Shown here piece by piece: positions 1-63,281 of a stretch of 64,000 nt of DNA. Every line of letters starts with the position of its first letter. The first letter of the stretch is position 1. The notes beneath the pieces are model-generated. The model ran no database searches. It saw only the letters and a program-made list of their open reading frames with translations, and had not been told where the DNA came from. Made by a program: the position numbers and the translations under genes. Source of the DNA: Chrysophaeum taylorii (lineage: Eukaryota; Sar; Pelagophyceae; Pelagomonadales; Pelagomonadaceae); contig JAQMWT010000695.1 in NCBI GenBank assembly GCA_029834535.1, forward strand, positions 62,001-126,000, given 5' to 3'.

Positions 1-528
1 GATGTCGTCGAGGTCGAGGACTTTCACACCTTTCTGCGTCACGTCGACGAGGCCCTCGACGGCGAGTTCCTTCGCGACGGCGCGCATCGCGGGCATCATC
101 TCTCTCCAGTCACCGCCGAAGCGCCGCGGAACCTCCGAAGGTCAGCAGGTCTTGGAAGGGCCACGCTCCCGCACGAGCTCGAGGGTGGCCGTCCGCAGGT
201 CTTTCGGCTTTTTCAGAGACGGAACGAACGAGCACCGGCTCACCTTCCCGTCTTTGTCGAACTCCACCCCCTCCTCCTCGAGGAGCCGCCGCTTCTTCTC
301 GAGCCCCTCTCCGCTCGTCTCGCCGCCGAACCCCACGAGCTTGCGGTCGGACCCGATCACTCGGTGTCAGGGAACGATAGGTGCGAACGGATTGCGACGC
401 ATGGCGCCACCCACAGCGCGAGCGCTCCCAGATCCTGTCGCCTCGGCGACCGCCCCGTACGACGCCACCTTTCCCTTGGGAATCGACTTAACCACGGCAT
501 GCACAGACTTCTCGAACGATGTCGGCAT
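1..528 (-). CDS. MGMT (O6-alkylguanine-DNA alkyltransferase) fused to DUF3253, probable double selenoprotein, C-terminus cut by window edge
   Basis: Read from ATG 528 leftwards, the frame first encodes a minimal MGMT DNA-binding and active-site domain. It has IPKGKVASYGAVAEATG near residues 16-32, then the arginine-finger segment ARAVGGAMRRNP, then IVP-TGA-HRVIGSD. In the family this last motif is PCHRV, whose cysteine accepts the alkyl group from damaged guanine; here TGA stands in its place (residue 54). A KKRRLLEEEGV segment closes the domain. A linker leads to KTC-TGA-PSEV, then GDWREMMPAMRAVAKELA and VTQKG, which match DUF3253 (usual form KTICPSEVAR...WRxLMPxVR). The second TGA (residue 129) replaces the conserved cysteine of that domain. 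Homology continues in frame across both TGAs, so selenocysteine is the best reading. The start is uncertain (ATG 567 or an upstream exon is possible). The 3' UTR, where a SECIS would lie, is outside the window. Short MGMTs lacking the N-terminal domain are common in microbes. Confidence 0.85.
142..144 (-). other. In-frame TGA at the conserved DUF3253 cysteine (candidate Sec codon)
   Basis: The context is ACC TGC TGA CCT TCG GAG, read K-T-C-x-P-S-E. The family consensus has cysteine directly before PSEV. The following base is again C. DUF3253 similarity runs on in frame to the window edge, so this TGA is not the natural end of the gene. Confidence 0.75.
367..369 (-). other. In-frame TGA at the MGMT catalytic cysteine position (candidate Sec codon)
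   Basis: The codon is TGA in the context CCC TGA CAC CGA, i.e. P-x-H-R where the family has P-C-H-R. The next base is C, a context in which UGA termination is comparatively weak. Conserved MGMT sequence continues in the same frame on both sides. Confidence 0.8.
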
Positions 529-663
529 CCTCACAGCGGCCGCGATCACAAACACCGCCAAGAGCATGAGGAAGCCCCCAGGAGGGCCTTCCCAACGGAA
601 CGGACGCCGAACCTTCTTTTTGTCTTGAAAACTTTCGTAACCTTCGAGCCAGCCACACGTCAG

Positions 664-2659: not shown

Positions 2660-5600
2660 AAAAAAAAATTCCGTGTCGTAGGGTCGGGTAAGAAACGTGG
2701 CTGGGGCCAGAAATCCCAAAAGATTGGCCCGGTTCTTTAAGGGCCCTGAAATACACCCCGTATGCCGCCCGATCTGATCTCCGTAGCTGCCAAGTTTAGA
2801 AAGTTCGTCGGGAGCTTGCCTATTATTATGGCCCACGAGTGAGTTGGGGTCGTCACATGCGAAAAGGACAGATAGCTCAAGAGGAGCGGTACATAATTGT
2901 TCACAGGGGACAATATGACGTCGCTTGCATCGAACTTCGACCAATTTGACTGGTGAGGCAGTATCTGCGAGACATCCGTCATTGACGACAATCAGCGTCG
3001 TCATCCGTCCACCCACCACCCATTCATAAACCCGTGAGTGTCCTCGTCCTAGTTCCCGTCATTCTCCTCGCTCTCCATGTCCTCGTCGTCCTTAACATCC
3101 TATTCATTGTCCGCCAACTCAAAGCGCCAGGAGCCAGGCTTGGTACCATTGGACGATCCGCCTTGAGCCATACTGCGAAGCCGTCATCGTCCTTGACAAA
3201 TATTCAAAGCAGCCCCATCTTGCGGCGACAGTCTTTTGAATTCACCGTCGAGACCGTCTCAATGACGCCGAGGCTCCTGGCTGGGCAGCCAACTCCCAGA
3301 GCACCTCGAACCGCGTAACAACCAACGAGTGATCGATCGTCGGAAGTTGTGAGCGACGATTCAGTCGTTGCCTTCTTCGACGCGCATCGCTCCTCGACGT
3401 GGCGCTCCTCGTCGCTCATGACCCGCCGAGATTCCAGGTTGAGGCGTTGCGCCCGTCGCGGTAGCCAGTATTGGCAGTTGCCGTGTGTGCGTCCCAGGGC
3501 ACAATCGCCTCGGTCAAAAACTCGCGGCGCTTCGACTTAATGACGTCGTAAATGTGCTTCCGGCTCCTGGTCAAAAAGGCCACGTTCTCGGCGGTGCTGG
3601 CTTTGCCCATTGTCGCGTCCTGCGTGGATGTGTACGACTCGGGCTCGAGTCCTCATGCCGGTGCATGGACCGTTCTTCAAAGTTCGGCTTGAGCTCCTAA
3701 CACGTAACAACGGGGTAACTGCTCGAGGGCGACTTTGAGGCGCGCGTTGACAGTCGAGGTCTACGTCTTGTTTCCCGGCGTGAGCGCGGCCTCGTTGACG
3801 AGGTGTTTGACATACGTGGCATCGCGAGCCTCGGTGAAGTCGGTGATCTGCCGCTCGAGGAGCACCTTTTTCGACGGCCTTGGCGTCTCAGGCCAGATGG
3901 TGGTCGATGATGCCTTTCCGACGCGCTAGCGACATGTATCTGTGCGACCGAGATGAGCTGCCTTGATGACGGCCAGCCCAACGTCCGCGCTGAGATCGTC
4001 GAGACGTCCCGCTGGGTTCTTCGCCATCGTGTCACGGGCCTCGGTGTCGTTGACACTGTTATGGCGCTTCACAGCACAAGTATCAGCGCGATAACCGAAG
4101 ACGTTGTCGAGCTGACACGAAACGACGCCGGAGACGCTTACAACATGCATAATGTTGGAGAACATCCCGGCATAGTAATTGGTTGAGCCGAACTCGCCCT
4201 CTACCCAATTCGTGTTTCGGCCCGATCACTTGTGTCTTGTTGGCCGCGGCGAGGTCGCCGTCGTCGACGTAGCGCCTGCCCTGGATGTTCTCGGAGGTGT
4301 GGATGAATTCGATTACCTGGAGCATGGTCTTGGTTGCCGGATTCTCGTCAAGTCGAACATCTTAGAGCCTCGGCCGCGACGTCGGCAATCTTCGCCCGAC
4401 CGTCGACAGACAGTCTGATCGACGCCACCCCCCGCGCGAGAAACTTGGCGTAGGCCTCCGCGGAGACGTCGAACAGCTCTCACTCCGCTGTCGCCAGGTT
4501 CTGTGGGTTGTCCCGGTATGTCTCGAATAACGAGCGCGCGTGCTCGTTGATTCTCGCCATTTCGAGGATGGACCAGTCGCCGAGGTCGTGGGAGGCGGCG
4601 AAGAAGCGGAAGGTTATAATGAGCTTATCGTGGATGAAGCCCCGGCCTAGTAAGGTGCTGATGACCTCATTTGCGGTAAGCGTGAAGAAGAGGTTAGGCT
4701 GCAGTGTGTTCCTCCTCGAGCTTGTCAACGCGTGCTCGGAGCCGCTCGATTTCCTCGTCATGGGTCTCGAGGCGGCCCTAAGCAGCGGCGAGTTTGAGCG
4801 TCATTTGCTTCGCGTTGCGATTAACAGCAGCGTGGCGGTCCTCGAGTCGGCAGAGCTTTTGAGGGTGACACTCCTTCGCACAACTCCTTCGTTCGTTCGT
4901 TCGTTCGTTCGTTCGTTCGTTCGTTCGTTCGTTCGTTCGTTCGTTCTGCCACCTCGGCCTCCACCGCTTTGGCACTTTTCGCCGCCTCTAACTTGTTTAT
5001 CGCGCTTTACAAATTCATCACGTCGCGCTCGAGCTGCTCCTCCGACGCGGCATCGTGGCGCTCGATCAGGACCCAGAGTCGCTCCCCCGACGAGCCGCAT
5101 CCTGGACCTCGACCTCATGCTTCATCTCGCCATCTCAGCGGCCATTTGCGCCTCCATCCCTGCAGCCAAGGCCTCCTCGGCCACGAAGGCGCCCGCGAGG
5201 GACATCTCGGTCTCGCGCTCGGCAACGACAGCGCGTCGCTGCTGCGTCTATTTGGCCACATTGAGACTGTTCTTGTCCTTGTGTGCTCACTGCTTCAAAA
5301 GGGATGGCGAGGACAGGCTGGGCGCATTGGTTGGTCGAGGTTGAAGCGGGCGGTCGACACACTCCGCGCCTCCTCTATGCGTGTTGAAGGACGATTGTTC
5401 TCGTTCTTCCGAACGCCGGCGAGGCCAACGTTGACCACCGTCTTATCAACAACACACTCGACGGTGAGCATCACGGTCCCCGTCCCGGATTCCTAACCAT
5501 CTTCTGAACCACTCGTCCACTCTTTGACAGCTCGAATAGTCTTGAACGACTCGCGCCTTATCGCCGTCCGGCCGAATCCGCGTCTCGACGTACAAGTATC

Positions 5601-22010: not shown

Positions 22011-22787
22011 CTAGGGCGCGTCGCTGACGTGGTCGTAGTCTTTGCCGTCCTCTGCCAGTTGGAGCGTGGTGGCCTCGAAATCGTCGTCGTCTAGCCAGCT
22101 TTCGAGGTCAAAGTCGGAGGTCGTCCGCTTGGGTGTTTCTGGCGCTGCGGGGACAGGCGGCGGGGCCACCGGTGATTCTTCCTCTGCTTCCTGGACCGCC
22201 GCCTCGGCGAGGGAGGCGGCGAACGGGTCGTCGACGACGAGGTCATCGTCGTCGTCGTCGTCGTCGGCGGGTGGCCGGCAACACCGTCGTCCAAGGCACT
22301 CTTGTCGGAGCTTGGCGCAGCGGTAGAAGTACCTCGTCCAAAAAACGTCTTCCTTGAGCCTCGCCGACAGCTTGGAGTGCATGGCCTTGAGGTTAGGATC
22401 GATCCTGAGCAAATCGAGGACGACGCGCTTGCGTTTCTTGACGCAAAAGGCGTAGTCGACGTCCGGCGCGACCCTGAAGGTGTCCTCGTGGCGCGAGAGC
22501 TCGAGGACCTTTGACTTGAGCTCGCGCGACGTGGCCTCGTCGGGCGCGTCCCACGGAAGCGCGCCGAGCTGGCCGTCGTAGAGAACTCGATCGTCGTCGC
22601 AGACTTCGATGCAATCGTCGCGCTCCTCGGCCTCGCACTCGGCGACGAACCGTTCGTGCTCCTTCTTTATCGAGTCAAGGCTCGAGTCGATTCGCTCCTG
22701 CGCGCATTCGATCTTCTCCTGGACCACGGCGGCGATGTTGCTCACGGCGCCGCCTAGGGTCCACAACGCTCTTTCTGCCGCTCCCAT
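22011..22787 (-). CDS. BSD-domain protein
   Basis: The 258-residue protein has an N-terminal helical region (VVQEKIECAQERIDSSLDSI) and a BSD domain near residues 90-160. The domain ends with the typical aromatic motif VFWTRYFYRC. BSD domains occur in TFIIH p62, in synapse-associated proteins and in plant/animal BSDC1-like proteins. The layout with an N-terminal amphipathic region fits the last group. The tail is acidic with an Asp run (DDDDDDDD) and a WLDDDDFE segment. ATG 22787 is the first ATG in frame. A more upstream ATG (22866) could be joined only through a 22-nt GT-AG intron, which seems too short. Confidence 0.8.
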   Translation of the reverse strand: MGAAERALWTLGGAVSNIAAVVQEKIECAQERIDSSLDSIKKEHERFVAECEAEERDDCIEVCDDDRVLYDGQLGALPWDAPDEATSRELKSKVLELSRHEDTFRVAPDVDYAFCVKKRKRVVLDLLRIDPNLKAMHSKLSARLKEDVFWTRYFYRCAKLRQECLGRRCCRPPADDDDDDDDLVVDDPFAASLAEAAVQEAEEESPVAPPPVPAAPETPKRTTSDFDLESWLDDDDFEATTLQLAEDGKDYDHVSDAP

Positions 22788-39414: not shown

Positions 39415-40941
39415 CTAGAAGGAGTCCTCTGGAGCAGCAGCACTTGAAGAAGAAGAAGAAGAAGAAGACGAAGGTAGTGGGTTGCGCTGGCGGCGCTTCA
39501 AGTCGTCGAAGACCGCGGCGAGGGAAGCCCGGTCTGCCTCGTAGAAGCGGTCGATTTCGACGAGGGTCCAATAGAAATTCGTCGCGAGATGCGCGACGAC
39601 GGGGGCGACGAGGCGGCTATTGGTGAGGAGGAGGAGGAGGCCGAAGACGAGGCCGTCGGGAAAGGTTTCCTTGATCCAATCGAGGCGTTTGGCGTCGGCG
39701 TCGGGCTCGTCGTCCTGGACCCAGTCGACGTGGGCGAGGGCGAATATCGTAGAAGAGAATAAAAGAGCAAAGGCGGCGGCGACGACGGAGACGAGCGGCT
39801 GGATGTGGTCCGCGCGGCCGACGATGATGCGGTGGAGGCCGTTGAGGACGAGGCCGCGATAATAGAGTTCTTCGGAGAGGACGCCGGGGAGGAGGTAGAA
39901 GAAAAGGGGCGCCAAGAGTTGACCAGACTGTTTGGTCGCGCCGCTCGTTAGGTCCCATAGCTGTTGTTTCTGGGCCGCGTAGCTCATGTCCTCGCGAAAC
40001 TCGGAGACGACACCTTTGTTATATTGGCGGTTCTTGAAGAGCTGGGAGGCAATCGCGGCGGCGAGACCGACCCCGACGTCGGCGACCACCGCTTTGGGTC
40101 CGCCGCTTACGAGAAGATCTCTCGCCATCGCGGCCGGGTTAAAGTCGTAGACCGCAGGGCACACGACGGCGAATAGACCGAATAAACCCAAACCCGCGAA
40201 CAAGAGCGAATCGGAGAGGCTCCGCGCGACGACACCCCAGGGACCCCCCGCGCTAGACAAAAGGTCGAAGCGGGACGCGGGCCCTCGCGGCTCGGCCGCT
40301 TCGGCGAGGTCGGGGGGAACCGTCTTGCGCATCACAACATGGCCCCGTCGGGTCCCCTCGACGGCATCGAAGCCGAGGCGATCGTACAAGGTCAACGCGG
40401 GTCCGTTGTCGTCTTTTACCGCGAGCCAAAGGTCGACGTTCGTCGCCTCGCTCAAACGCGCGGCGCGGCTCGCCTCGCGCTCGCACCAGGACATCAACGC
40501 CGACCCGAGCCCTCGTCGCCGTTTTGAGGCGTCGACGCACACGTACTGGACCCAGAACGCCCGTCGTCTCGAAAAGTCGACGTCGTCGCACGCCTCCTCT
40601 CGGACCAAACACGGCACGAGTTGCGCGCACGCGACCGTCCTTCTCTCTTTCGCCTCGCGGACGACCGCGAGGCTCGACGGCCCCGCCGCGTCGAAGAACA
40701 CGTTCGCCAGGGCCGCGGGGTTTCGCAAGATCTTCGTGTGCTGCGAAGCCTTTGAGCTCGGGAAGCAGAGGGCGCACAGCTTCCCGGCCGCCTCGAAATC
40801 GGAGGCCTCCCGCGCGACGCTCACCAACGTAGCCTCCTCGACTTTGGACTGGAGCCGCGTTCTTCGTCGTCGTCGTAACAACTCGCCGGCGGGCCTCGGC
40901 TCGAACCCGGACGCCACAAGGCCCCACACCACCACCCACAT
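39415..40941 (-). CDS. GNAT acetyltransferase fused to CPBP (CAAX-like) intramembrane protease, plastid-type leader
   Basis: Two enzyme domains are joined in 508 residues. Residues 35-210 form a GNAT domain with the acetyl-CoA loop RRRGLGSALMSWCE and the C-terminal DRLGFDAVEGTRRGHVVMRK. Residues 225-480 form a membrane protease domain of the CPBP/Abi family. It has all three active-site motifs: EELYYRG (EExxxR), FALAHVDW (FxxxH) and HLATNFYW (HxxxN). CPBP enzymes include Rce1 CAAX proteases and plastid proteins such as plant SCO4 relatives. The first ATG (40941) gives MWVVVWGLVASGFEPRPAG, a short signal peptide followed by F, like an ASAFAP plastid junction. The tail is a serine run encoded by CTT repeats. 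The start is 105 bp from the divergent GBP gene. Confidence 0.85.
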   Translation of the reverse strand: MWVVVWGLVASGFEPRPAGELLRRRRRTRLQSKVEEATLVSVAREASDFEAAGKLCALCFPSSKASQHTKILRNPAALANVFFDAAGPSSLAVVREAKERRTVACAQLVPCLVREEACDDVDFSRRRAFWVQYVCVDASKRRRGLGSALMSWCEREASRAARLSEATNVDLWLAVKDDNGPALTLYDRLGFDAVEGTRRGHVVMRKTVPPDLAEAAEPRGPASRFDLLSSAGGPWGVVARSLSDSLLFAGLGLFGLFAVVCPAVYDFNPAAMARDLLVSGGPKAVVADVGVGLAAAIASQLFKNRQYNKGVVSEFREDMSYAAQKQQLWDLTSGATKQSGQLLAPLFFYLLPGVLSEELYYRGLVLNGLHRIIVGRADHIQPLVSVVAAAFALLFSSTIFALAHVDWVQDDEPDADAKRLDWIKETFPDGLVFGLLLLLTNSRLVAPVVAHLATNFYWTLVEIDRFYEADRASLAAVFDDLKRRQRNPLPSSSSSSSSSSAAAPEDSF

Positions 40942-41046
40942 CTGTCTTATTGCGGCTGACAACACTAACCACAGAGACAGATTTTCAAACAACTTGGCGT
41001 TCGTTCCTTCCCTTCGCTTCCAAGACGACGACGACGACCACCAAGC
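40942..41046. promoter_or_regulatory. 105-bp divergent promoter region
   Basis: Start codons of GNAT-CPBP (minus, 40941) and GBP (plus, 41047) are only 105 bp apart. Both core promoters must lie here or overlap the 5' leaders. A GACGACGACGACGACC run precedes the GBP start. Confidence 0.5.
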
Positions 41047-43035
41047 ATGGCGGCGAGAAGGAGTTGCAGTTGTCTTGTGAAACAGAGCGAGAGCGCTATC
41101 GGGGCCGACGGCGAGTTGGCCCTCGAGGTGTGCGAGGAGGGCGTCGAGTTGCTCGAGGCGCTCGAGGCGCCACCGGTGGTGATAAGCGTTGCCGGGATGT
41201 ACCGCACGGGTAAGTCATTTTTCCTGAATCGGCTGGGGGGTGGAAGGCCCGAATTGGGCGTTGGATCAACGACCGAGCCCCACACCCGGGGGATCTGGAT
41301 CTGGCACGTACCGGCGGCGGCGGCGGCGGCACCGCCGCTAATTTTAATGGACACCGAGGGCCTCGCGTCGTCCGATCGAGACGAGAGCTACGACGCCAAG
41401 ATATTCTCTCTCGCGCTTCTCTTGTCGAGCTACGTGGTTCTGAACGTGGTGGGCGTCATCGACGACGCGACCATCGAGCGTCTCCACGTGGTGACGCAGG
41501 TCGCCACCTCGATAATCGTCTCGGAACGAGACGGGGGATCTGTCTCCGAGCACTTTCCGCCTCTCGTCGTGCTCGTGCGCGACTTCGCGCTCCGGCCGAC
41601 CAAAGACGGCGCGCCCCTCGGCGACAACGAGTACCTCGAGGAGGCACTGCGGGACCGCGAGGATCGGCGTCGCCCGCGGCGGAATCAGACTCGAAAGACG
41701 CTCAGGACGGTCTTTCCGAGCCGCGCGTGCTGCACGCTCGTCAGACCCGTTTCCGACGAGGACGCGCTCCGGCGCGCCGCAAACCTGAGCGACGACGAGC
41801 TCCGGCCCGAATTCGTAGAAAAGCTTGCTCGCCTGAAGGCCGCGATACTCGAGGGTTGTGGCGAAGAAAACGTAGCGCCTCGCGCGGATATCAAACGCGT
41901 GCTGGGCCACGCGTGCGGCGGCGCGACGCTCGCCGCGTTGACGCGAAAGCACGTCGACGCCATCAACTCCGGGGCCGCGCCCTCGATCGCGGGGGCCTGG
42001 GAGGCGGCGAGTCGCGACGTATGCGCGCGCGCCGTCGAGGCGGCCGAGGACGCCTACGCTCCCGACCTCCCGGCGGACGGAACGCTGCCCGCGCACGCCG
42101 AGCGGCCGCTGAACAGGACCGCCGACGTCGACGCGCTCCATCGCGACGCCGTTCTGCGCGCGGTCGCGGTCTTCGAGGCGCGGGCCGTCGCGCCGGCGCG
42201 AAACGAGGCGCGCGACCGCCTCGACCGCCGCCTCGCCGCGCGGGCCGAATCGCTCGCGGCCGACGTCGTTGCCCGCTCGGTCGCGGCGTGCGTGGACGAC
42301 GACCCGGCACCCGTTCCGGCCTTGGACGACCCCGAGGAAGCCGGGTTCGTCGAAGCCACGACGGATTTTTTAGAGAGAAGAATTTCGAGACTCGAAAGTA
42401 TAGCGCGAGGTCCGAGGCGCGACGCTTTTTTGAAGAGGGCGCGCTTCGACGCGGAAAGGGCGGCGGTCGCAACGTGCGCGTCTCGCGTCTCGCGCTTGCA
42501 CGCGGCCCGCCGGACGGCCGAGCGCGAGCGCCGCGAGGCAGCTATCGACGCGGCTTCCGAAAGGACGCGCGCCGCCGAGGAGCGCGCCAACTGGCAAGCA
42601 ACCCGCGCCGACAACGCCGAGGCCGCCGCGCGCGCCGCGACCGACGAGCTTCGCGCGGCGCGCCGCGAGCTCCTCGACGAGGCCGCGGAGATCGACTCCC
42701 TCCGAGAGCGCGCGGCTTCTCTAGCCCGCGAGCGCCTCGCCGTCGGTGCCGCCGCCCACGCCCTCGGGCGCCTCGTCGCGGCCGTCGAGGCCGCCGACGC
42801 CCGCGACGCCGACGCCCGCCGCCACGCCGCAGAGCTCGGGGAGCTCGCCTTCCGCGTCAAGGACGAGACCCGCCGCTCGCTCCTCGACGAGGCTGACCAT
42901 CAGCAGCAGCAGCAACCGAAGGAATTCTTCGCTCCTCTCGGGAAGCTCTGGGCTGTCGGCCGAGACAAGGTCGCGTCGGTGGCCGAGCACGTCCTCCAGC
43001 AAATCGACGAGGAGCTTGAGGGGGACCCCGCATAA
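41047..43035 (+). CDS. GBP/atlastin-like large GTPase
   Basis: The 662-residue protein has a dynamin-superfamily GTPase of the guanylate-binding type. The P-loop GMYRTGKS lies at 50-57, followed by the switch threonine in STTEPHTRGIW (74-84) and G3 DTEG at 102-105. The guanine-specificity motif is RD at 178-179 in VVLVRDF, which is the GBP/atlastin version of G4. Residues 280-640 are helical and very rich in Ala, Arg and Glu. They correspond to the GBP middle and effector helices. No C-terminal CAAX box or membrane hairpin is visible, so it is probably soluble. Plant and protist relatives of this type have roles in defence or membrane remodelling; no specific role is claimed here. Confidence 0.9.
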   Translation: MAARRSCSCLVKQSESAIGADGELALEVCEEGVELLEALEAPPVVISVAGMYRTGKSFFLNRLGGGRPELGVGSTTEPHTRGIWIWHVPAAAAAAPPLILMDTEGLASSDRDESYDAKIFSLALLLSSYVVLNVVGVIDDATIERLHVVTQVATSIIVSERDGGSVSEHFPPLVVLVRDFALRPTKDGAPLGDNEYLEEALRDREDRRRPRRNQTRKTLRTVFPSRACCTLVRPVSDEDALRRAANLSDDELRPEFVEKLARLKAAILEGCGEENVAPRADIKRVLGHACGGATLAALTRKHVDAINSGAAPSIAGAWEAASRDVCARAVEAAEDAYAPDLPADGTLPAHAERPLNRTADVDALHRDAVLRAVAVFEARAVAPARNEARDRLDRRLAARAESLAADVVARSVAACVDDDPAPVPALDDPEEAGFVEATTDFLERRISRLESIARGPRRDAFLKRARFDAERAAVATCASRVSRLHAARRTAERERREAAIDAASERTRAAEERANWQATRADNAEAAARAATDELRAARRELLDEAAEIDSLRERAASLARERLAVGAAAHALGRLVAAVEAADARDADARRHAAELGELAFRVKDETRRSLLDEADHQQQQQPKEFFAPLGKLWAVGRDKVASVAEHVLQQIDEELEGDPA

Positions 43036-47023: not shown

Positions 47024-48481
47024 TTACTGGTAGTGGTAGAGGATATCTTCGCGGTCGAGGTTGTAGGCGCGCAAGGACTGTCGCGAGTGGGGCGTCCTGA
47101 GCTTGCGCAGCGCGCAGGCCTCCATCGACTTGACCCACTGCTTTGTCTCGCAACACTCCTCGGCAATCTGGCGGTGCGTTTGCACCCTGCCATCGGCGAG
47201 GCCAAAGCGGCGGCGGATAACCGTCTGCTCATCGAGGGTAAGGTACTTCTGCAGCGCCTCCTCGATCGCGTTATGCATGAGCGAAAATTCGACGTTCATC
47301 TCTGCCGGGGGCTCGGACGTCATCAAAGTATCCGAATATTTAAGGCCTTTGACCTTTTGCCTCGACGGCGCGGACCACGAGGCGACCCTCCTGTTGTTGA
47401 CGACGACTCGCGGCGCGCCCGAGGCGTCGTCGAAGAGCTTGTTGCACGGACGGCCAACCAGCTGAGACGGACCGTATTTGTCGGCGTCGGACCGAACGAT
47501 CGCGTCCGTCGAAACCGGCAACGTCGCCCTGAGCGCCGTCTCGAGGCGCTTGAGTTTGTCAAGGCTCCAGTCCATCGCCTGGCAGAGCTCCTCGTCCGAG
47601 GGGTCCCTGCCGTGGGTCCACAGAAAAGCTGACCTGCAACGCGTCATCCTTACCACCTCGTCGTGCACGTACATCGGCAACCTGATCAACCGCGAGTCGC
47701 AGGCCAGGGTCCTCAGGATCGCCTGGCGGATCCAGTGGTACGCGTAGGTCGAGAACTTGTAACCGCGATCGGGGTCGAACTTGGTCGCGGCGCGCATCAG
47801 TCCGATAGACCCCTCCTGCACGAGGTCGGACAATCCGACGCCGTAGCCCTCGTGCTTTTTCGCCAGAGCATAGACGAGCCGCATGTTCGCCGCGACGAGG
47901 GCCTGCCGCGCGGCGCGCCCGGCCCCGATCAGCTCCTCCAGGTCCGCCGCCGACGTCAGGTTCGCGCGCACGGCCCATTCTGCCAAGAACCCGTCGGTCG
48001 ACGCGTGTTCCTTCCGCCACTCGACCTCCGCCGGATCCTTATGCCGGACCCCTTTGCGACCCGGCAGCCGGTCCCGCTTTTTTCGTTTCGTTACCTCGCG
48101 CCGCGGAAAGTGCTTTTCCACGCGCTCGTCCATCAGAGCGTCGCGCGCCCTCTCGAGGCGCAGCAACCGCTGCGCGACCTTCCCCAACTCGCGCTCCTCC
48201 GACGAGTCCAGCAGCCGCGTCGTGAACAGCGTGTCCTGCGGCGAATTGTTTTCTGCCCGTCGCCGTTTCCGCCGGAGCCCCTCCTCGGGCGCGGCCTCGC
48301 TCGTCGTTCTCAAGATCAGTTGCTCGGCAAATCGTCGATCGGCCTCCGCCGCCGCCCGCACGGCCGCCTCGAGGTCCTCCTTGGCGCCCCGAAGACACTG
48401 CGTGCTCCGCGCCGGCGCCACCACGCTGAACCCCGACGAGGCTGTCGTCAAAAGCAGCGCAATCGCCACACCGAGGACCAT
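47024..48481 (-). CDS. Nuclear-encoded plastid RNA polymerase sigma-70 factor
   Basis: This factor directs the bacterial-type plastid RNA polymerase to promoters. The 485-residue product starts at ATG 48481 with a signal peptide (MVLGVAIALLLTTASSGF) whose junction SSG-FSVVAP is a clear ASAFAP-type plastid motif. A charged N-terminal region follows. Region 2 is intact (AANMRLVYALAKKHEG, DLVQEGSIGLMRAATKFDPD, then KFSTYAYHWIRQAILR with the aromatic melting motif). Region 3 is moderate. Region 4 holds the helix-turn-helix (LTLDEQTVIRRRFGLADG, then THRQIAEECCETKQWVKSME). Algae with red-derived plastids usually have several such factors in the nucleus. Confidence 0.95.
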   Translation of the reverse strand: MVLGVAIALLLTTASSGFSVVAPARSTQCLRGAKEDLEAAVRAAAEADRRFAEQLILRTTSEAAPEEGLRRKRRRAENNSPQDTLFTTRLLDSSEERELGKVAQRLLRLERARDALMDERVEKHFPRREVTKRKKRDRLPGRKGVRHKDPAEVEWRKEHASTDGFLAEWAVRANLTSAADLEELIGAGRAARQALVAANMRLVYALAKKHEGYGVGLSDLVQEGSIGLMRAATKFDPDRGYKFSTYAYHWIRQAILRTLACDSRLIRLPMYVHDEVVRMTRCRSAFLWTHGRDPSDEELCQAMDWSLDKLKRLETALRATLPVSTDAIVRSDADKYGPSQLVGRPCNKLFDDASGAPRVVVNNRRVASWSAPSRQKVKGLKYSDTLMTSEPPAEMNVEFSLMHNAIEEALQKYLTLDEQTVIRRRFGLADGRVQTHRQIAEECCETKQWVKSMEACALRKLRTPHSRQSLRAYNLDREDILYHYQ

Positions 48482-48762
48482 CTTCTTCGACGGCGACGAG
48501 ACTTGTTGGAACAACAACAACCAAAATCCTTTGCTTCAAGCTTGAGATTGGTTCGTTCCTGCCGCCTGCTCTAATTTGTATACATACCAGCTGTCTTTTG
48601 CGTTCTGGGGCCCCAAGACGTGACACAACTGCGACGTCACCGCACCCCGCCGTGACGCCCTCCTTGTTCCGTTCAGTGGGGGTCGCTGTCATTTCCTTCG
48701 TCGCGTCGTTGGCCCCAAGCACCAGCTCGATGCCGAGCTGGTCCCACTCCTCGAGGACTACG

Positions 48763-55632: not shown

Positions 55633-56653
55633 TTATTGGCTGACGAGGTCGGGCGAGGCCGCGGCGGGGTCTTCGTCGTCCGAGTCGTCGTCGCCGACCT
55701 TCCAGTCGAGGGGCCTGCGGATAGGTCGCGGCGTAAGAAAAGGAATCGCGCACCAGTTGCCGTTCCTGGCGAGGCGGATGCACTCGGCGTAGTCGCCTAG
55801 TAAAAAAAGGTCAAGAGAACTTAAAGAGAAGAGCACCGACCGTCCTCTATGGCGGCGCTCATCGCGTCGAGCTGCGCCGCGGCGTCGAAGAAGCTGCGGT
55901 CCTTGGCGACTCGTCGGGGCGTGCGTCCGTTGGCGTCGCGGATGGTCGCGTCGGCGCCGCAGTTGAGGAGAGCGGCGATGGCGGCTCGGGCGCCGACGTT
56001 GGCGGCCGCGTGGAGGGGGGTCGCACCCGCGACGTCGACGGCGTCGAGGGCTTTGGAGACGTCGTCGGCGTCGTCCTTGAGTCTCGAGGCGAGGAGGTGG
56101 ACGACGTTGGCGTGGCCGCGGCTGGCCGCGTGCCAGATGGGTCCGCGTCCGTTCGCGTCGAGGCGCGAGACGTCGGCGCCGGCGTCGAGGAGGAGCCTGC
56201 AGGCGTCGGCGTCGCCGCTCGCCGCGCAGACCGCGAGGGGTGCCGCGCGGACCGAGCCGTGGGGGGCGTCGACGTCGAAGCCCTTGACGCGGTCCTTGGG
56301 TTTTGCGCGGGCGAGGACGACGGCGAGGGTTGCGAGGTCTGGCTGGCGACAGGCGCGAAGGAGCGGTGTTTCGGCATCCGATCGGCGCTTGGGGTCGGCG
56401 CGGCAGGGGGCGAGGGCGTTGGCGCCCGCCTCGAGGAGCGCGGCGACGCTCGCGCCGTTGCGCTGCGAGACGGCGAGCGCCAGCGCGTGGTCGATCCTCG
56501 CCTGGAACGCGTCGTCGTCCTCCTCCTCGTTCTCGTCCTCCACCGACAGCTGGCTCTTGAGGACCTTGAGGTTGTGCAGGCGCACCTCCGCTGCCTCCTC
56601 CTCCTCGTCGTCGTCGTCGTCGTCGGCGTCGGAAAGAATGGGGTCGTCCTCCT

Positions 56654-56700
<47 letters not shown>

Positions 56701-59700
56701 TCGTCGCGGTCTTTGAGCTTGTCGCACTCGTCGATGGCCGTCTGGACCGCGCGGAGCTCGGCTTTGTCGTCGGGTTCGTCAAAACAAGCGCGCTCGAGGG
56801 CCGAGCGGCCCTTGGCGTCGCGGGCCTCGGGGTCGGCGCCGTTGGCGAGGAGGGCGTGCGCGACCGAGACGTGGCCCCGGCGGAGGGCCTCCATGAGGGC
56901 GGTCGCGCCCTCGTCGTCGTCGCGGCGGTCGACGTCGAAGACCGCGAAGCGCTGGTCGAGGAAAATGCGGACGGCCTCGAGGTCGCCCGAGGAGACCGCG
57001 AGCATGAAGGGCGTCGTGGTTAGTTTTGGGGAGAGCGCCGCGCGGACGCGCGAGTCGGCCGTGTCTCCGACGGGAAGCACCGAGAGGTTTTCGGAGGAGG
57101 AACCGGAGGATGGTATTTTCTTCTTTTTCACCACGGCAACAGTCGCCGCCGCGGCCGCGGCGGCCGCCGCGCGGAGGTCGTCGTGCGCGACGCGCGGGAC
57201 CTGGTCGCTCGTCGAGACGCAGGGGGCGAGGGGCTCGGCGCCGCGCATGAGGAGGAGCTTGATGAGCTCGTGGCGGCGCCGCGAGACCGCGAGGCGGAGG
57301 AGGGGCGCGGCGTCGTCGAGGACGGGCCGGACGTCGCAGCGCGCCTGGAGGAGGGCCTCGGCCGTCGTCGGCTGCCGGCACCTCGCTGCCGCCGAGAGCG
57401 CCGCCTCCAACTCGTCGACGGCGGTCTTGGTGGTGGTATCCGCCGAAACCGCCGAAGCCGCGGCGGCGTTATTATTGCCGGAAGAGCCGAGCTGGAGGGC
57501 GGCCTCGACGCAGTCGGCGCGGCCGCAGGCGGCGGCGCGCGTGAGGAGGGTGCGGGCGTCGGCCGCGGCGGCCGAGACCGAGAAGCAGCCGCGGGAAACG
57601 AGGCGGATGGCGCGGTCGAAGTCGCCGTCGTCGACGGCCGAGCGCATGGCCTCGAGTCTGCGGGCGGCGTGGCGCGCTTTCGAGCGCTTGGCCGAATCGA
57701 GGGGCGTCGAGGCCGAGGCGTCGGTGACGTCCGAATCCGCGCCCGCGCCGAGGAGGAGGCTGACGACGGCGCCGTCGTCGACGGTCGCGGCGCGGGCGAG
57801 GGGGGTCGCGCCCCGCGCGTCGCCGGCGCGCAGGAGCTTGGCGCGCTCGAGGTCGTTGGCGGCGAGCGTCGTGATGAGCACGGCGGCCGCGTCGTAGCTG
57901 CGGTTGGCCGCGGCGACGTGGAGTGGGGTGCGGCCGCTCGCGTCGCGGGCAAACGGGGCGTCGTCGAGGCGGAGGTCCGCGTCGCGCGAGAAGCCCGCGT
58001 GCGCGGCGGCGACGTCGTCGCCCGCGGGGTCGCGGCAGAAGCGCAAGAGCAGAGAGAGGGAGTCGAAGCGGTCGGCCGCCGCGGCCGCGTGCACGGGCGA
58101 GACCGGGTGGTTCCTCTCGACGGCGGCGAGGATCGCGCGGCGGAGGGTTTCGCGTCGGGCCGCGCGGAGGGCGGGGGCGTCGGGGGTCGGGGAGTCGACG
58201 TCGCCGAGGAGCTGCTTGAGCATCTCGACGCCGCGCGGCGGCGGGGCGGCCGCGGCGCGCGCGAGGGCCGAGAGCTGGGGCGCGGCCGCCGCGTCGGGGG
58301 GGAGGGGGTGCGCCCTCGCGTACTCGTCGCGCACTCTTCTCGGCTCGAGGACGACGTTATCAGCCTCGGTCCGACTGGTGGTGCCGCTGGGGACGGCCGC
58401 GTCGGCGCCCGAGGCGACGGCCAACTTCGCGAGGGCCGCGTCGCCCGTGTCGACGGCGAGGGCGAGCAACAAGGCGGCGCCCTCGGGGCTCGGGGCGGCC
58501 CCCTTCTCGAGGAGGACGCGGGCCGCGCGGCCGCGGCGGTGGTCGGCGGCCGCGTCGAGGGCGGCCGCCCCGAGGGCGTCGGCGAGGGGCGCGCCGCCCA
58601 CCAAAAGGAGAGCGGCGACGCCGTCGGAATCGCCCTCGCGCGCCGCCGAGACGAGGGCGAAGGCGCCGTCGCCGGCCGTGAGGGAGTAGTTGCCGCGGTC
58701 GGCGAGGGCGGCCGCGCGCGCGTAGACGCGGGCCTCGACGGCGCGTCGCATGACGGCGAGGCGCGCGACGCACGCCGCGGACCTTTCTTCGACGACGCGC
58801 TCGTCGCCGTCGAAGAAGCTGCCGAGCGACGACGACGCCGCCGCCGCCGCCGCCGACGTCGAATCGGCGGTCTTGGCCGCCGCGAGGTCGAGCGGGGTCG
58901 CGCCCGCGAGACCGTCGGGCTGCTCGGCCGTCGCGCCCGCGCGCAGCAGGGCCGCGACCGTCGCCGTCTGGGCGGCCGCGGCCGCCGCGTGGAGGGCGGC
59001 GCGCTCGTCGCCCGCGGCCGCGCCGAGCCGCGAGACGGGGGCGAGGGCGCGGACGACGGCCGCGTGGCCCGCCTCGGCCGCGAGGGCCAGCGCCGCGCGG
59101 TTCCGGAGGTCGGCGGGCGTGTCGGGGCGCGCGCCGGCCGCCAGCAAAGCGCGCACGGCGAGGCGTCGACCCGCGACCGCCGCCGCGCCCAGCGCCGTCA
59201 CGACGTCCGCGAGCTCGTGGCGAAAGTCGAGGTCGAACGGCGAGGTCGCGTGGTGCGCCAGCAACGCCTCCAGAACGGCCTGGGCGTCGGCCGCGTCGCC
59301 GCGCGCGAGGCGGGTCGTCTCGTGGTCCGCGACGAAAAATTCCTCGTCGACGTCCTTGGGCGGCCACGCGCCGCTCGCGAGGAGCAAAGGCGTCCGGCCC
59401 GCGGCGTCGGGCTTTAGGGGGTCGGCGCCGCGCGCGAGGAGCAGCGCCGCCGCCTCGCCGCGGCGGCGCGCCCCTCCCACGAATCGCGGCGCGCCCATTT
59501 CCGAACCGCCCGCGACGACGTGGAGCGGCGCCTCCTTCCGCTTGTCGTCGACCGCGTTCGCGTCGGCGCTCGCGTCCAACAGGAGCTGGCCGAGCGTCAC
59601 GACGCGCTCGCGGCGCTCGGCGGTCGCGTCCAGAAGCGCGCCGCTCCGCGCGGCCGCCAGAAGCGGCGTCTCGCCCCTCGCGTCGGGCTTGTTCGCGTCG

Positions 59701-62700
59701 GCGCCCGCCTCGAGAAGCCGCGCGGCCGCGGGCGCGTGGCCGAGACGGCACGCGACCAAGAGCGCGGTGCAGGCGCCGTGGTCGTCGCCCGCCGGCTCGT
59801 CCACCTCGTAGTTTCCGCGCTCCACGTACCGCAGCGTCGCCGCGTCGTCGCCGGCGACGATCGCCGCGCGGAACCGGCCGAGGGTCCCGGCGATCTGGGC
59901 GTCGCCGTTGTCGAGCGCGATCGACAGCGGCCGCATCACCAGCGACTCGGTGATCGTCGTAGCCTCGGTCGCGTCGGAAATCGACGCCGCGCGGATCTCG
60001 TAGTGTGGCGCGGCCTGCTGGACGTCGGGCCTGCGGCCCATGGCCGTCGTCAGCCCCGAGAGCCCGCTCGTCACCGAGGCGGTCTCGTCGTAGCACGACC
60101 GCGCGTCCTCGCCCACGGGCGCGAGGTATCCGCGCCGGAAGCTCGTCGTCGCGGCGTACCGACCGTCGTCTTTTCCAGAACAAGAAGAAGGCGGCGGCGG
60201 CGGCGGCGCGTAGCTCGAGGACGCCGAAGCCCCGAAGCGCAAGAGGGCACCCACGGCGCCGTGGGCGTGCGCGGCCGTCGCGACCTGGAGGGCCGTCTGC
60301 GCGTTGAAGTCGACCGCGTCGACGTCGAGCATCGTCGCGATCGAATCGCCCGACTCGCCCGAGGACCTCCGGCCAAAACTCAACAAGAGCTCGACGTTCT
60401 CGGCGCGGTCGGCCTCGGCCGCGTAAAACAAGGCCGTCCGGCCCCGGTGATCGACCTTGCGGAGGTCGGCCGTGCGCACGCCCTTCTTGGGGCCGATCGC
60501 GCGCCGCTTGAGGCCCGCGTCGGCCGCGAGGTCGTGCGCCCCGAGAAGCGTCCGAAGCACGGCCGACGTCTCGGGCATCGCCGCCGCGAGCATCAAAGCC
60601 GTCGCTCCGTACTTGCCGTGGGCCGCGTCGACGTCGATTCCCACCACCACCGGAACCGCCTGCTGGGACCGGGGGAGGAGGAGGACCGCCTCGACGGGCG
60701 ACGCGAGGAGCGTCGGACTCGACGACGGCAGCTCGCCGAGCCCGTCGTCGTCGCCGGCCGAGACGTCGCTCGCGCCCCCCATCGACGGCTTGCGCCGGTG
60801 GTCGTGGTGGTCCTTGGCACCAACAACAAGATGTTGCGTCGTGGTGGTGCTGGTGGTGGTGGTGGTGCTCCCCCCAAACAGGAGGAGGTCGTCGGCCGAC
60901 TGAATCGCGCTCGCGCGGCGCGCGACGAGACTCGTCGTCGACATCATGCGATCGACGAGCTGGACGTCTCTCGCGTCGGCGGCCGCGATGCTCAGGGGAG
61001 ACCGGTCCTTGTGGTCGCGCTTGAGGGGGTCGGCGCCGTGCTCGAGGAGGAGGGTCGCGACGTCGCGGGCCGAGGCCGCGTTGACGGGCACCGTCCTCGA
61101 GCGCGCGGCCGCGAGCGCGGCCCGACAGAGCGCGGTCGCGCCGTTTGCGTCGCGCGCGTCCACGTCGCACCGCCCCGTCGCGAGGAGCGTCTTGCAGAGG
61201 TGGCGGTCGCCCCGCGTCGCGCAGGCCATCAGCGGCGTGCACCGTTCGCGGGCGTCGTGGTCGGCGTGGTTCGCGTCCGCGCCGATCTTGAGCCAGAGCT
61301 CGACGCCCTGGCCGTCGCCGTTGTGGCAGCACCGGAGGAGCGCGGTCAGCTGGCGCGACGGCGGAAGCGCGCACACGTCCGCGGGAAAGTTGGTCAAAGG
61401 CTCGCCGCGGTATCCCCCCTTTCCGCCGTCCTGGGGCTGCGCGAGGGTCGCCTGCGCCGCGTCGCCCGCGCCCGACGCGAGGAGCTCGTGCGCGGCCTCG
61501 CGGAGCGCGCGCCTCACCGAGATCGCGAGCTCGCCCGCGCGCGCCGCGTCGAACTCGGCCGCCCCCAGCGCGCACCGGAGCTCGGCCGTGGCCGCGACCA
61601 GCTCCGAGGCCCGCACGCACGCGTCGGTCGCCGGAAGCCGCTGCCGCTGGAGGGGCGCGGCCGCGTCGCGCTGGAGGAGCGCCGCGACCGTCGCGACCTG
61701 GCCCTCGGTCACCGCGAGCTGCAGCGGGGTCGATCCGTTCGCGTCGCGCGCGTCGACGTCCGCGCCCGCGTCGGCGAGGGGCGATATCACCGAGGCGCGC
61801 CCCCGGGCCGCCGCGTGGTGCAGCGCCGTGCGACCCTCGGCGTCGCGCCGCTCGACGCTCGCCGCGCACGCGACCGTCAAATCGAGCTCGTCGCGCCACC
61901 GGCCGCCGTGCGCCAACGCGGCGACCACTCCGCCGTGCCCCGCCGCCGCGGCCGCCGCCAGGGCCGTCGCGGGATCGATCCCAAACTCCTCGTCGGGGTG
62001 CGCGAGGAGCTCGCCGCGACGCTTCGACTCGCGGGGCTCCTTGGCCGCGAGGCACGCGATCGCCCGCAACAGCCCCGTCGCGACTTTGGCGCCTCCGAGC
62101 CGCGCGGCCGCCAAAAGCGGCGTCTCGCGCGAGTCGTCCTGGAGCGTCGGGTCCGCCCCCGCCTCGAGGAGCTTCACGACCGCCTTCAGAGCGTCCGTCC
62201 TCACGGCCCCCAACAGCGGCGTCTCCTCCACCCGCGGCTCGGCGCCCGCCGCCGTCTGACGACGCTTCCCGACCGACTTGGAAGACCTGTGGTGCGGCCC
62301 GTCGGGCAGCGCGCCGAGGTCGAGGAGCGACTCCACCAAGTCCGCGCGCGCCGCGCGCGCCGACGCCAGCAGCGCCGTCACCCCGCGGTCCGACGCGTCG
62401 CGGCCCACGTAGTCCACGTCCAACCGTCCGCGTCGCAGCGCGAGCAGCGCGACGTCGACCTTGGCCGGCCTCGCCGCGAGCGCCTCCTCGAGCTCCGCGG
62501 CGTCCCTCTCCTTCTCGCGCGCCTCCCGGAGGGGTTCGAGGAGCGTGTCGAGGTCGGTCGTCGCGACGCGCTGCAGCAAATCGAACCACATCTCCAGTCC
62601 CTCGCTCGACGTGCAGTCGAGCAGTCGCTTCTTGCCCGAAGCCGCGTTGAAGTCAGACACCGACAGAGTGAAGGGCCGCCCGGGCTGCGGCGCCTTGTGC

Positions 62701-63011
62701 ACCGACGTCCCGGCCGTTATCGTCATCTCCTTGCAGTACACAAAGCTCGGAGGGGCTCCCAAGGTCGTCGAGTCCAGCCGCAACGTCAGATTCTCCAGCT
62801 CGGCGTTCACCCGCACCCACTTTCCGCTCCCGATCGGCGCGAGCGACCCCTCCCGTGTCAAAACCTCCACCACGCCAGACTGACGCAAAGCGATGTCGTC
62901 CTGGGTCCGCTCCGACCCCAACCCGTCGGACGACGGCGCCTTGAGACGCTGCTTCCTGGAACCAAAGCTGTTCATCTTCTTGCGTGGGGTGCCAAAAAAA
63001 ATTACAACCAT
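55633..63011 (-). CDS. Giant PH-domain plus ankyrin-repeat protein, two exons
   Basis: This is a scaffold-like protein of about 2,440 residues. Exon 1 runs 63011 (or ATG 62975, MNSFGSRK) to 55841. A 44-nt intron (GTCGGT...TACTAG) is followed by the last exon, 55796-55633. Splicing joins AIEDG to DYAECIRLARNGNW and adds a tail with an acidic stretch and SQ end. A PH domain spans about residues 35-150 (VVEVLTREGSLAP, RVNAELENLTLRLD, CTSSEGLEMWFDLLQRV). Ankyrin repeats of the form GxTPLxxAAxxGHxxVVxLLLxxGADP then fill most of the length, with alanine, aspartate and serine runs. A separate helical motif of the form AVxxGDFxxAxxLxxRGNY recurs four times between repeat blocks. A membrane-phosphoinositide-bound scaffold role is inference. 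Confidence 0.88.
55797..55840 (-). other. 44-nt intron of the PH-ankyrin gene
   Basis: It starts GTCGGT and ends TTTTTTTACTAG with a good pyrimidine tract. Removing it fuses two conserved halves of the GD(Y/F)xxAxxLxxxGN motif that is repeated three times elsewhere in the same protein, which strongly supports it. Confidence 0.85.
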
Positions 63012-63281
63012 CTTCAAACCCTCGTGATGAAAGAAATTGTTGTGTTGGGATCCCTCTGCTGCTTGGCTTGGTTTGCTGCCTAGAAAAAAAAAAATATTTT
63101 AGACGCCTACAACAACTTTTTTTAGTACTAGTAGTCTTTAGTCCCTCCTATTTTGGCTGGCCGGCGACGACCCCGGTTGTTTGTTCTCGGCGACGACCAA
63201 CATTTTTATTATTTAGGGTTCGGGAGAGAGACATCAGACATATACGTCTAGAGGAGGCAAAACTCAACCATAAAACTGGGG

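Follow-up and report, generated by a model that had tools for sequence, protein, structure and literature searches.

The first 528 nucleotides of the window, as we call the whole 64-kb stretch of DNA that was analysed, very probably encode most of a eukaryotic, probably algal, two-domain selenoprotein in which MGMT is fused to DUF3253, selenocysteine (Sec) stands at both of two in-frame TGA codons, and the SECIS element lies in a 3′ untranslated region (UTR) beyond the window. The features of this region are as follows.

1 to 528, minus strand: read-through coding frame MGMT-DUF3253, with 176 codons visible from the ATG at 528 to the window edge.
265 to 516, minus strand: MGMT catalytic and DNA-binding domain (PF01035), residues 5-88, from Pfam, TIGR00589 and PDB matches.
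367 to 369, minus strand: TGA codon 54 (TGA-1), putative selenocysteine 1, at the catalytic cysteine of PCHRV (Cys145 of human AGT).
7 to 201, minus strand: DUF3253 domain (PF11625), residues 110-174, from Pfam; a relative of PDB 2ns0.
142 to 144, minus strand: TGA codon 129 (TGA-2), putative selenocysteine 2, at the cysteine of the DUF3253 ICPS motif, directly after Cys128.
529 to 567, minus strand: possible in-frame 5′ extension from the ATG at 567, an alternative start, with the hydrophobic, signal-like sequence MLLAVFVIAAAVR.

The initial annotation had followed a single frame leftwards from position 528 through MGMT and then DUF3253 across two TGA codons, and profile searches bear this out. 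On the read-through translation, PF01035 matches over profile positions 2-81 of 81 (E 4e-29, 100.6 bits against a cut-off of 27), TIGR00589 scores 80.1 bits against a cut-off of 46.4, and PF11625 matches over positions 3-70 of 81 (E 1e-15, 58.2 bits against a cut-off of 22.1). Both TGA codons fall within these Pfam matches, TGA-1 in PF01035 and TGA-2 in PF11625, and they are the only stops in the 176 codons of the minus-strand translation of 1-528, where TAA and TAG are absent. As the DUF3253 match stops at position 70 of the 81 in the profile, the window lacks roughly the last 10 codons of the gene together with its stop codon; these, like the 3′ UTR, would be located past window position 1 on the minus strand. 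Upstream of the ATG at 528, the frame is open as far as a TGA at 774, with a codon score of 0.62 over the 14 codons of 529-570.

The initial annotation had set the two TGA codons exactly at the key cysteines of the two families and had noted a C after each; both observations hold, with TGA-1 at P-C-HRV (codon 54), TGA-2 at I-C-PSE (codon 129), and C as the following base at either codon. An in-frame TGA thus coincides twice with a cysteine site of homologs, and neither the homology nor the coding signal breaks off at the TGA codons. Taken as Cys, TGA-1 closes a piece that corresponds to positions 2-52 of PF01035; from codon 56 onward the sequence corresponds to positions 54-81, a weak match when scored alone (19.3 bits, cut-off 27). 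When eight readings of TGA were compared (the residues C, W, S, R, G, Y and L, plus X), Cys scored best at both sites, with 100.6 bits on PF01035 followed by Trp with 99.4 at TGA-1, and with 58.2 bits on PF11625 followed by Ser with 54.8 at TGA-2.

In alkyltransferase-like proteins (ATL) the catalytic Cys is replaced by Trp (P-W-HRV), and the narrow gap of 1.2 bits between Trp and Cys at TGA-1 raises the question of whether TGA is read as Trp and the protein is an ATL. A structure model of the protein gives some encouragement here, as its first Foldseek match is the Schizosaccharomyces pombe ATL 3gva. The 39 Foldseek matches with E no higher than 0.001 comprise MGMT as well as ATL structures. 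Against this, Trp falls 5.7 bits below Cys at TGA-2, the best PDB matches by sequence are MGMTs (4wxc, E 6e-16, as against E 3e-8 for 3gva) whose chains align IVP-C-HRVIG at TGA-1, and all 141 Trp codons of the 16 family-bearing open reading frames (ORFs) elsewhere in the window are TGG. We therefore regard the ATL reading as practically negligible. The MGMT relatives point the same way: the motif PCHR is present in 37 of 37 aligned sequences, chosen among 81 loci found, a unanimity that is partly due to selection because one search seed contained PCH.

The remaining active-site columns of the same 37 relatives are nearly uniform, with Tyr in 37, Arg in 34 (Gln in 3), Asn in 37, His in 37 and Glu in 34 (a gap in 3). 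Both Tyr and Arg have roles in the MGMT active site. All five of these residues are retained in the window, as Tyr24, Arg37, Asn46, His55 and Glu86, so that only the nucleophile depends on how its codon is read: TGA supplies it if translated as Sec or Cys. For human AGT, Asn137, Cys145, His146 and Glu172 are named in the corresponding description (PMC4150793). Stops within MGMT matches are otherwise absent from the material compared, at 0 of 55 matches in 30 prokaryotic genomes.

At the second site, the cysteine is a feature of one type of DUF3253. Among 34 bacterial matches, 33 cover the site, and 20 of these 33 have Cys there while 13 do not; wherever Pro-Ser follows the site, the residue is Cys (20 of 20), and the window has Pro-Ser-Glu. 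Cys is also invariant in alignment A1, which consists of 17 of the 34 rows picked as being of the ICPS type. The residue that precedes the site is Ile in 23 of the 33 bacterial rows, Val in 6, Ala in 2, Lys in 1 and Leu in 1, but Cys in none, so the vicinal Cys128-Sec129 pair of the window would be unlike anything in these rows. The solved DUF3253 protein, 2ns0 (Rhodococcus RHA04536), is matched by profile A1 at E 1e-31 and by the model in Foldseek at E 0.045 with a probability of 1.00. It shares the domain and its ICPS motif with the window gene, although it is a stand-alone bacterial protein of 85 residues with Cys at the site, whereas the window has a fusion to MGMT, TGA at the Cys position and an extra Cys immediately before it. 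Judged by the helices and strands of the model, where confidence is modest, DUF3253 looks winged-helix-like. The model has a mean pLDDT of 78.2 and a pTM of 0.59, with ten-residue blocks at 77-94 up to residue 100 and at 51-77 beyond; since its alignment covers the MGMT half only, the relative placement of the domains and the distance between the two sites in it are unreliable.

A general reassignment of TGA would also put Cys at both sites, as the Euplotes code does by reading TGA as Cys, and both TGA codons do lie at Cys positions. The genetic code of the window speaks strongly against it. Twenty ORFs were scanned, 16 of which bear a recognizable family and 15 of which end inside the window; these 15 terminate with TAA (6), TAG (5) or TGA (4), the last group including phosphoglycerate mutase, as expected from the earlier observation that TGA is an ordinary stop elsewhere in the window. 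All 213 Cys codons of the 16 ORFs, some of which encode DHHC and RING domains, are TGC (170) or TGT (43), and Cys99 and Cys128 of the MGMT-DUF3253 frame itself are encoded by TGC. The lack of internal TGA in the 16 ORFs holds by construction, and it is the stop codons together with the Cys and Trp codon counts that mark TGA as a stop in this DNA and as no general codon for Cys or Trp. It is thus scarcely credible that the organism reads TGA as Cys rather than Sec.

A recently decayed pseudogene, in which two nonsense mutations happened to strike two key cysteines, is the natural alternative for a frame with two in-frame stops. Further features consistent with decay are a conserved DUF3253 column with Ala in 97% of bacterial rows and Pro in the window, and a codon bias that is weak over the first 53 codons. 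The coincidence needed is a severe one: if TGC is assumed at both sites, where 50 single-base changes would create a stop in the frame, two random nonsense hits fall on exactly codons 54 and 129 with P = 0.0005-0.0008 (transition weights of 4 to 1), a value that is uncorrected for the inspection of the entire window for unusual features. The earlier judgement that decay could hardly explain the coincidence is upheld by this estimate. Moreover, the 176 codons contain no other stop and stay in a single frame throughout, the active-site residues are intact, and gene-like codon bias persists past each TGA. With the family-bearing ORFs of the window as training set, the codon-usage score is 0.01 for codons 1-53, 0.36 between the TGA codons and 0.57 for the 47 codons after TGA-2, and in each piece this frame outscores the other two forward frames; phosphoglycerate mutase, which belongs to the training set, scores 0.46. 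Overall, we consider a pseudogene improbable.

Codon usage alone does not single out these two codons, as shown by a ranking of the 197 TGA codons in the window with 40 open codons on each side, where TGA-2 comes 4th and TGA-1 20th by the score of the weaker side. Among the three ranked above TGA-2, those at 22512 and 62257 on the plus strand overlap a family-bearing ORF on the opposite strand. The 2nd of the 197 lies in the stretch 4761-4350 on the minus strand, where an ORF stops at the TGA at 4482-4480 with the codon score staying high for 40 codons beyond; the read-through has no NCBIfam match, and this TGA may mark the edge of an intron, be an ordinary stop or be recoded as well.

A more restricted version of selenocysteine decoding would accept Sec at TGA-1, as in the known algal MDP proteins, and take TGA-2 as a true stop or as a nonsense codon in a trailing remnant, with DUF3253 incomplete. 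Precedent leans this way, in that a Sec-MGMT family is on record in algae and a DUF3253 with Sec was not found in the literature searched. The sequence leans the other way: TGA-2 sits within the DUF3253 match at its Cys column, the 47 codons that follow it have the highest score of the three pieces, and termination there would leave only about 20 residues of DUF3253. We give this version little credence, and the two-selenocysteine protein remains our preferred reading.

The two-selenocysteine protein had been proposed at the outset, and it stands as the best reading, with its rivals fitting worse; what does not stand is the novelty attached to the MGMT site, which had been presented as a possibly unreported selenium-based alkyl acceptor for algae. 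Sec-MGMT is already described in algae as the 'MDP' selenoprotein family, linked to DNA repair (PMC7539508). MDP proteins are MGMTs that carry Sec in eukaryotic algae, as the window gene probably does; no DUF3253 fusion or second Sec is mentioned in the text examined, and the string 'DUF' is absent from the main text (PMC7539508). The same source gives some marine algae large selenoproteomes, of 82 and 96 genes (PMC7539508), which together with the eukaryotic setting of the window we count in favor of Sec at both sites. It also describes GST-MSRA of Emiliania huxleyi, in which two selenoprotein families are likewise fused in one algal protein, although these are redox-related enzymes, unlike MGMT-DUF3253 (PMC7539508). 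Among prokaryotic sources, one Sec-MGMT sequence is listed from ocean metagenomes (PMC2398784), ABB14497.1 appears in a table as a Sec-MGMT (PMC13188914), and the family is listed again elsewhere (PMC7435645); these have the same PF01035 with Sec, but differ in being prokaryotic and in having one Sec listed (PMC2398784; PMC13188914). A legend to a selenoprotein figure gives 'MTR, methyltransferase' with no detail (PMC5917014), while the available text of another article has no occurrence of the word methyltransferase (PMC6627142).

The literature search returned no relevant paper on selenoproteins of Pelagomonas, and the names DUF3253 and PF11625 were not found in the literature searched. The selenoproteome of Aureococcus was reportedly treated by Gobler and colleagues in 2013. 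With no report found in the literature searched, figures and supplements aside, both the MGMT-DUF3253 fusion and the Sec in DUF3253 appear to be new.

A bacterial origin of the fusion was sought and not found. The collections searched for relatives were prokaryotic, viral or plasmid, and yielded 81 MGMT loci (1 from IMG/VR and 80 kept of 189 relatives in genome contigs), none of which has DUF3253, either by tblastn with the DUF3253 half or by the DUF3253 profile (0 of 81 each). Conversely, no MGMT accompanies DUF3253 at 34 loci of 2.1-3.3 kb each, apart from two short chance matches (E 0.7 and 0.9). DUF3253 itself is present in 4 of 30, 17 of 115 and 14 of 119 genomes, with one genome (G029) common to the first two sets. 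The phage collection has 22 records that match the query protein P0001, none over 80% of its length, and the matches listed (20 of the 22) are all within residues 1-71, the MGMT half; the DUF3253 half alone matches 2 plasmid records. Searches of IMG/VR gave one MGMT at 40% by protein, 2 hits to the pattern P-TGA-HRVIG and 1 to TGA-PSEV, all due to chance (the former two on translation), 9 pattern matches to the DUF3253 profile with no relative among them, and no copy of the exact 30 bases at the window edge.

Judging from its gene content, the window is nuclear DNA of a eukaryote, probably a photosynthetic one. Long open frames carry eukaryotic genes for DHHC-ankyrin, NudC, RING, Fringe, guanylate-binding protein, Na/H exchanger and UAA transporter proteins. 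Alongside them, at 47027-48535 on the minus strand, a sigma-70 family protein is encoded whose region 2 exceeds the cut-off and whose matches to regions 3 and 4 are weak; the gene, presumably a nuclear one that serves transcription in the plastid, suggests that a plastid is present. ARAGORN detects no tRNA genes in the 64 kb. An Rfam scan of the same 64 kb, to which the 3′ UTR of the MGMT-DUF3253 gene is external, gives 0 matches at the gathering threshold and, up to E 2, three matches below gathering scores with no SECIS among them, an outcome that has no bearing on this gene.

Several other features of the window are recorded here for their own sake. A 2425-residue open frame of ankyrin repeats extends over 55824-63098 on the minus strand, in a stretch rich in G+C where two 4-kb blocks reach 76% and 69%; CCG is repeated there in a run, 15.7 copies long, at 56654-56700. 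At 4888-4946, TTCG is repeated in perfect tandem, in 14.8 copies, which gives FVRS repeats in a plus-strand ORF. A single open frame at 39418-41214 on the minus strand has GNAT acetyltransferase and Rce1-like CAAX protease domains, and may be a fusion or two genes.

In the mechanism we propose for the MGMT-DUF3253 protein, a SECIS in the 3′ UTR, immediately past the window edge, would direct the insertion of Sec at the two TGA codons, and Sec54 is predicted to attack the alkyl group of O6-alkylguanine. The closest experimental parallel is engineered human AGT with Sec145, which protects E. coli from MNNG (PMC4150793). Here Sec is likewise at the alkyl-acceptor position, though the protein is man-made, has one Sec and uses a UAG codon (PMC4150793); as an analogy, it shows that Sec is capable of the chemistry, not that this organism uses it. 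The N137A variant of human AGT is dead with Cys and active with Sec (PMC4150793), and the equivalent of Asn137 is kept in the window as Asn46.

The DUF3253 domain of the window may contribute DNA binding or, by way of the vicinal Cys128-Sec129 pair, a second reactive centre. A bolder proposal is that of a selenium alkyltransferase with two selenolates, in which Cys128-Sec129 works with Sec54, either by accepting another type of lesion, in the manner of the Ada N-terminal domain, or by dealkylating or redox-gating Sec54 to let a suicide repair protein turn over. We regard this as a long shot; if it were true, the Cys of bacterial DUF3253 would be a reactive residue, and DUF3253 would gain a role in alkylation repair.

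Known selenoproteins are for the most part redox catalysts with turnover. Spending costly Sec on a single-use repair protein would be odd, and placing another in a domain whose function is unknown would be odder still. Because Sec usually replaces a reactive Cys, TGA-2 suggests that the cysteine of the ICPS motif in DUF3253 takes part in chemistry. The site thereby offers a concrete route to the function of DUF3253, and to why some algae would keep selenium in DNA repair.
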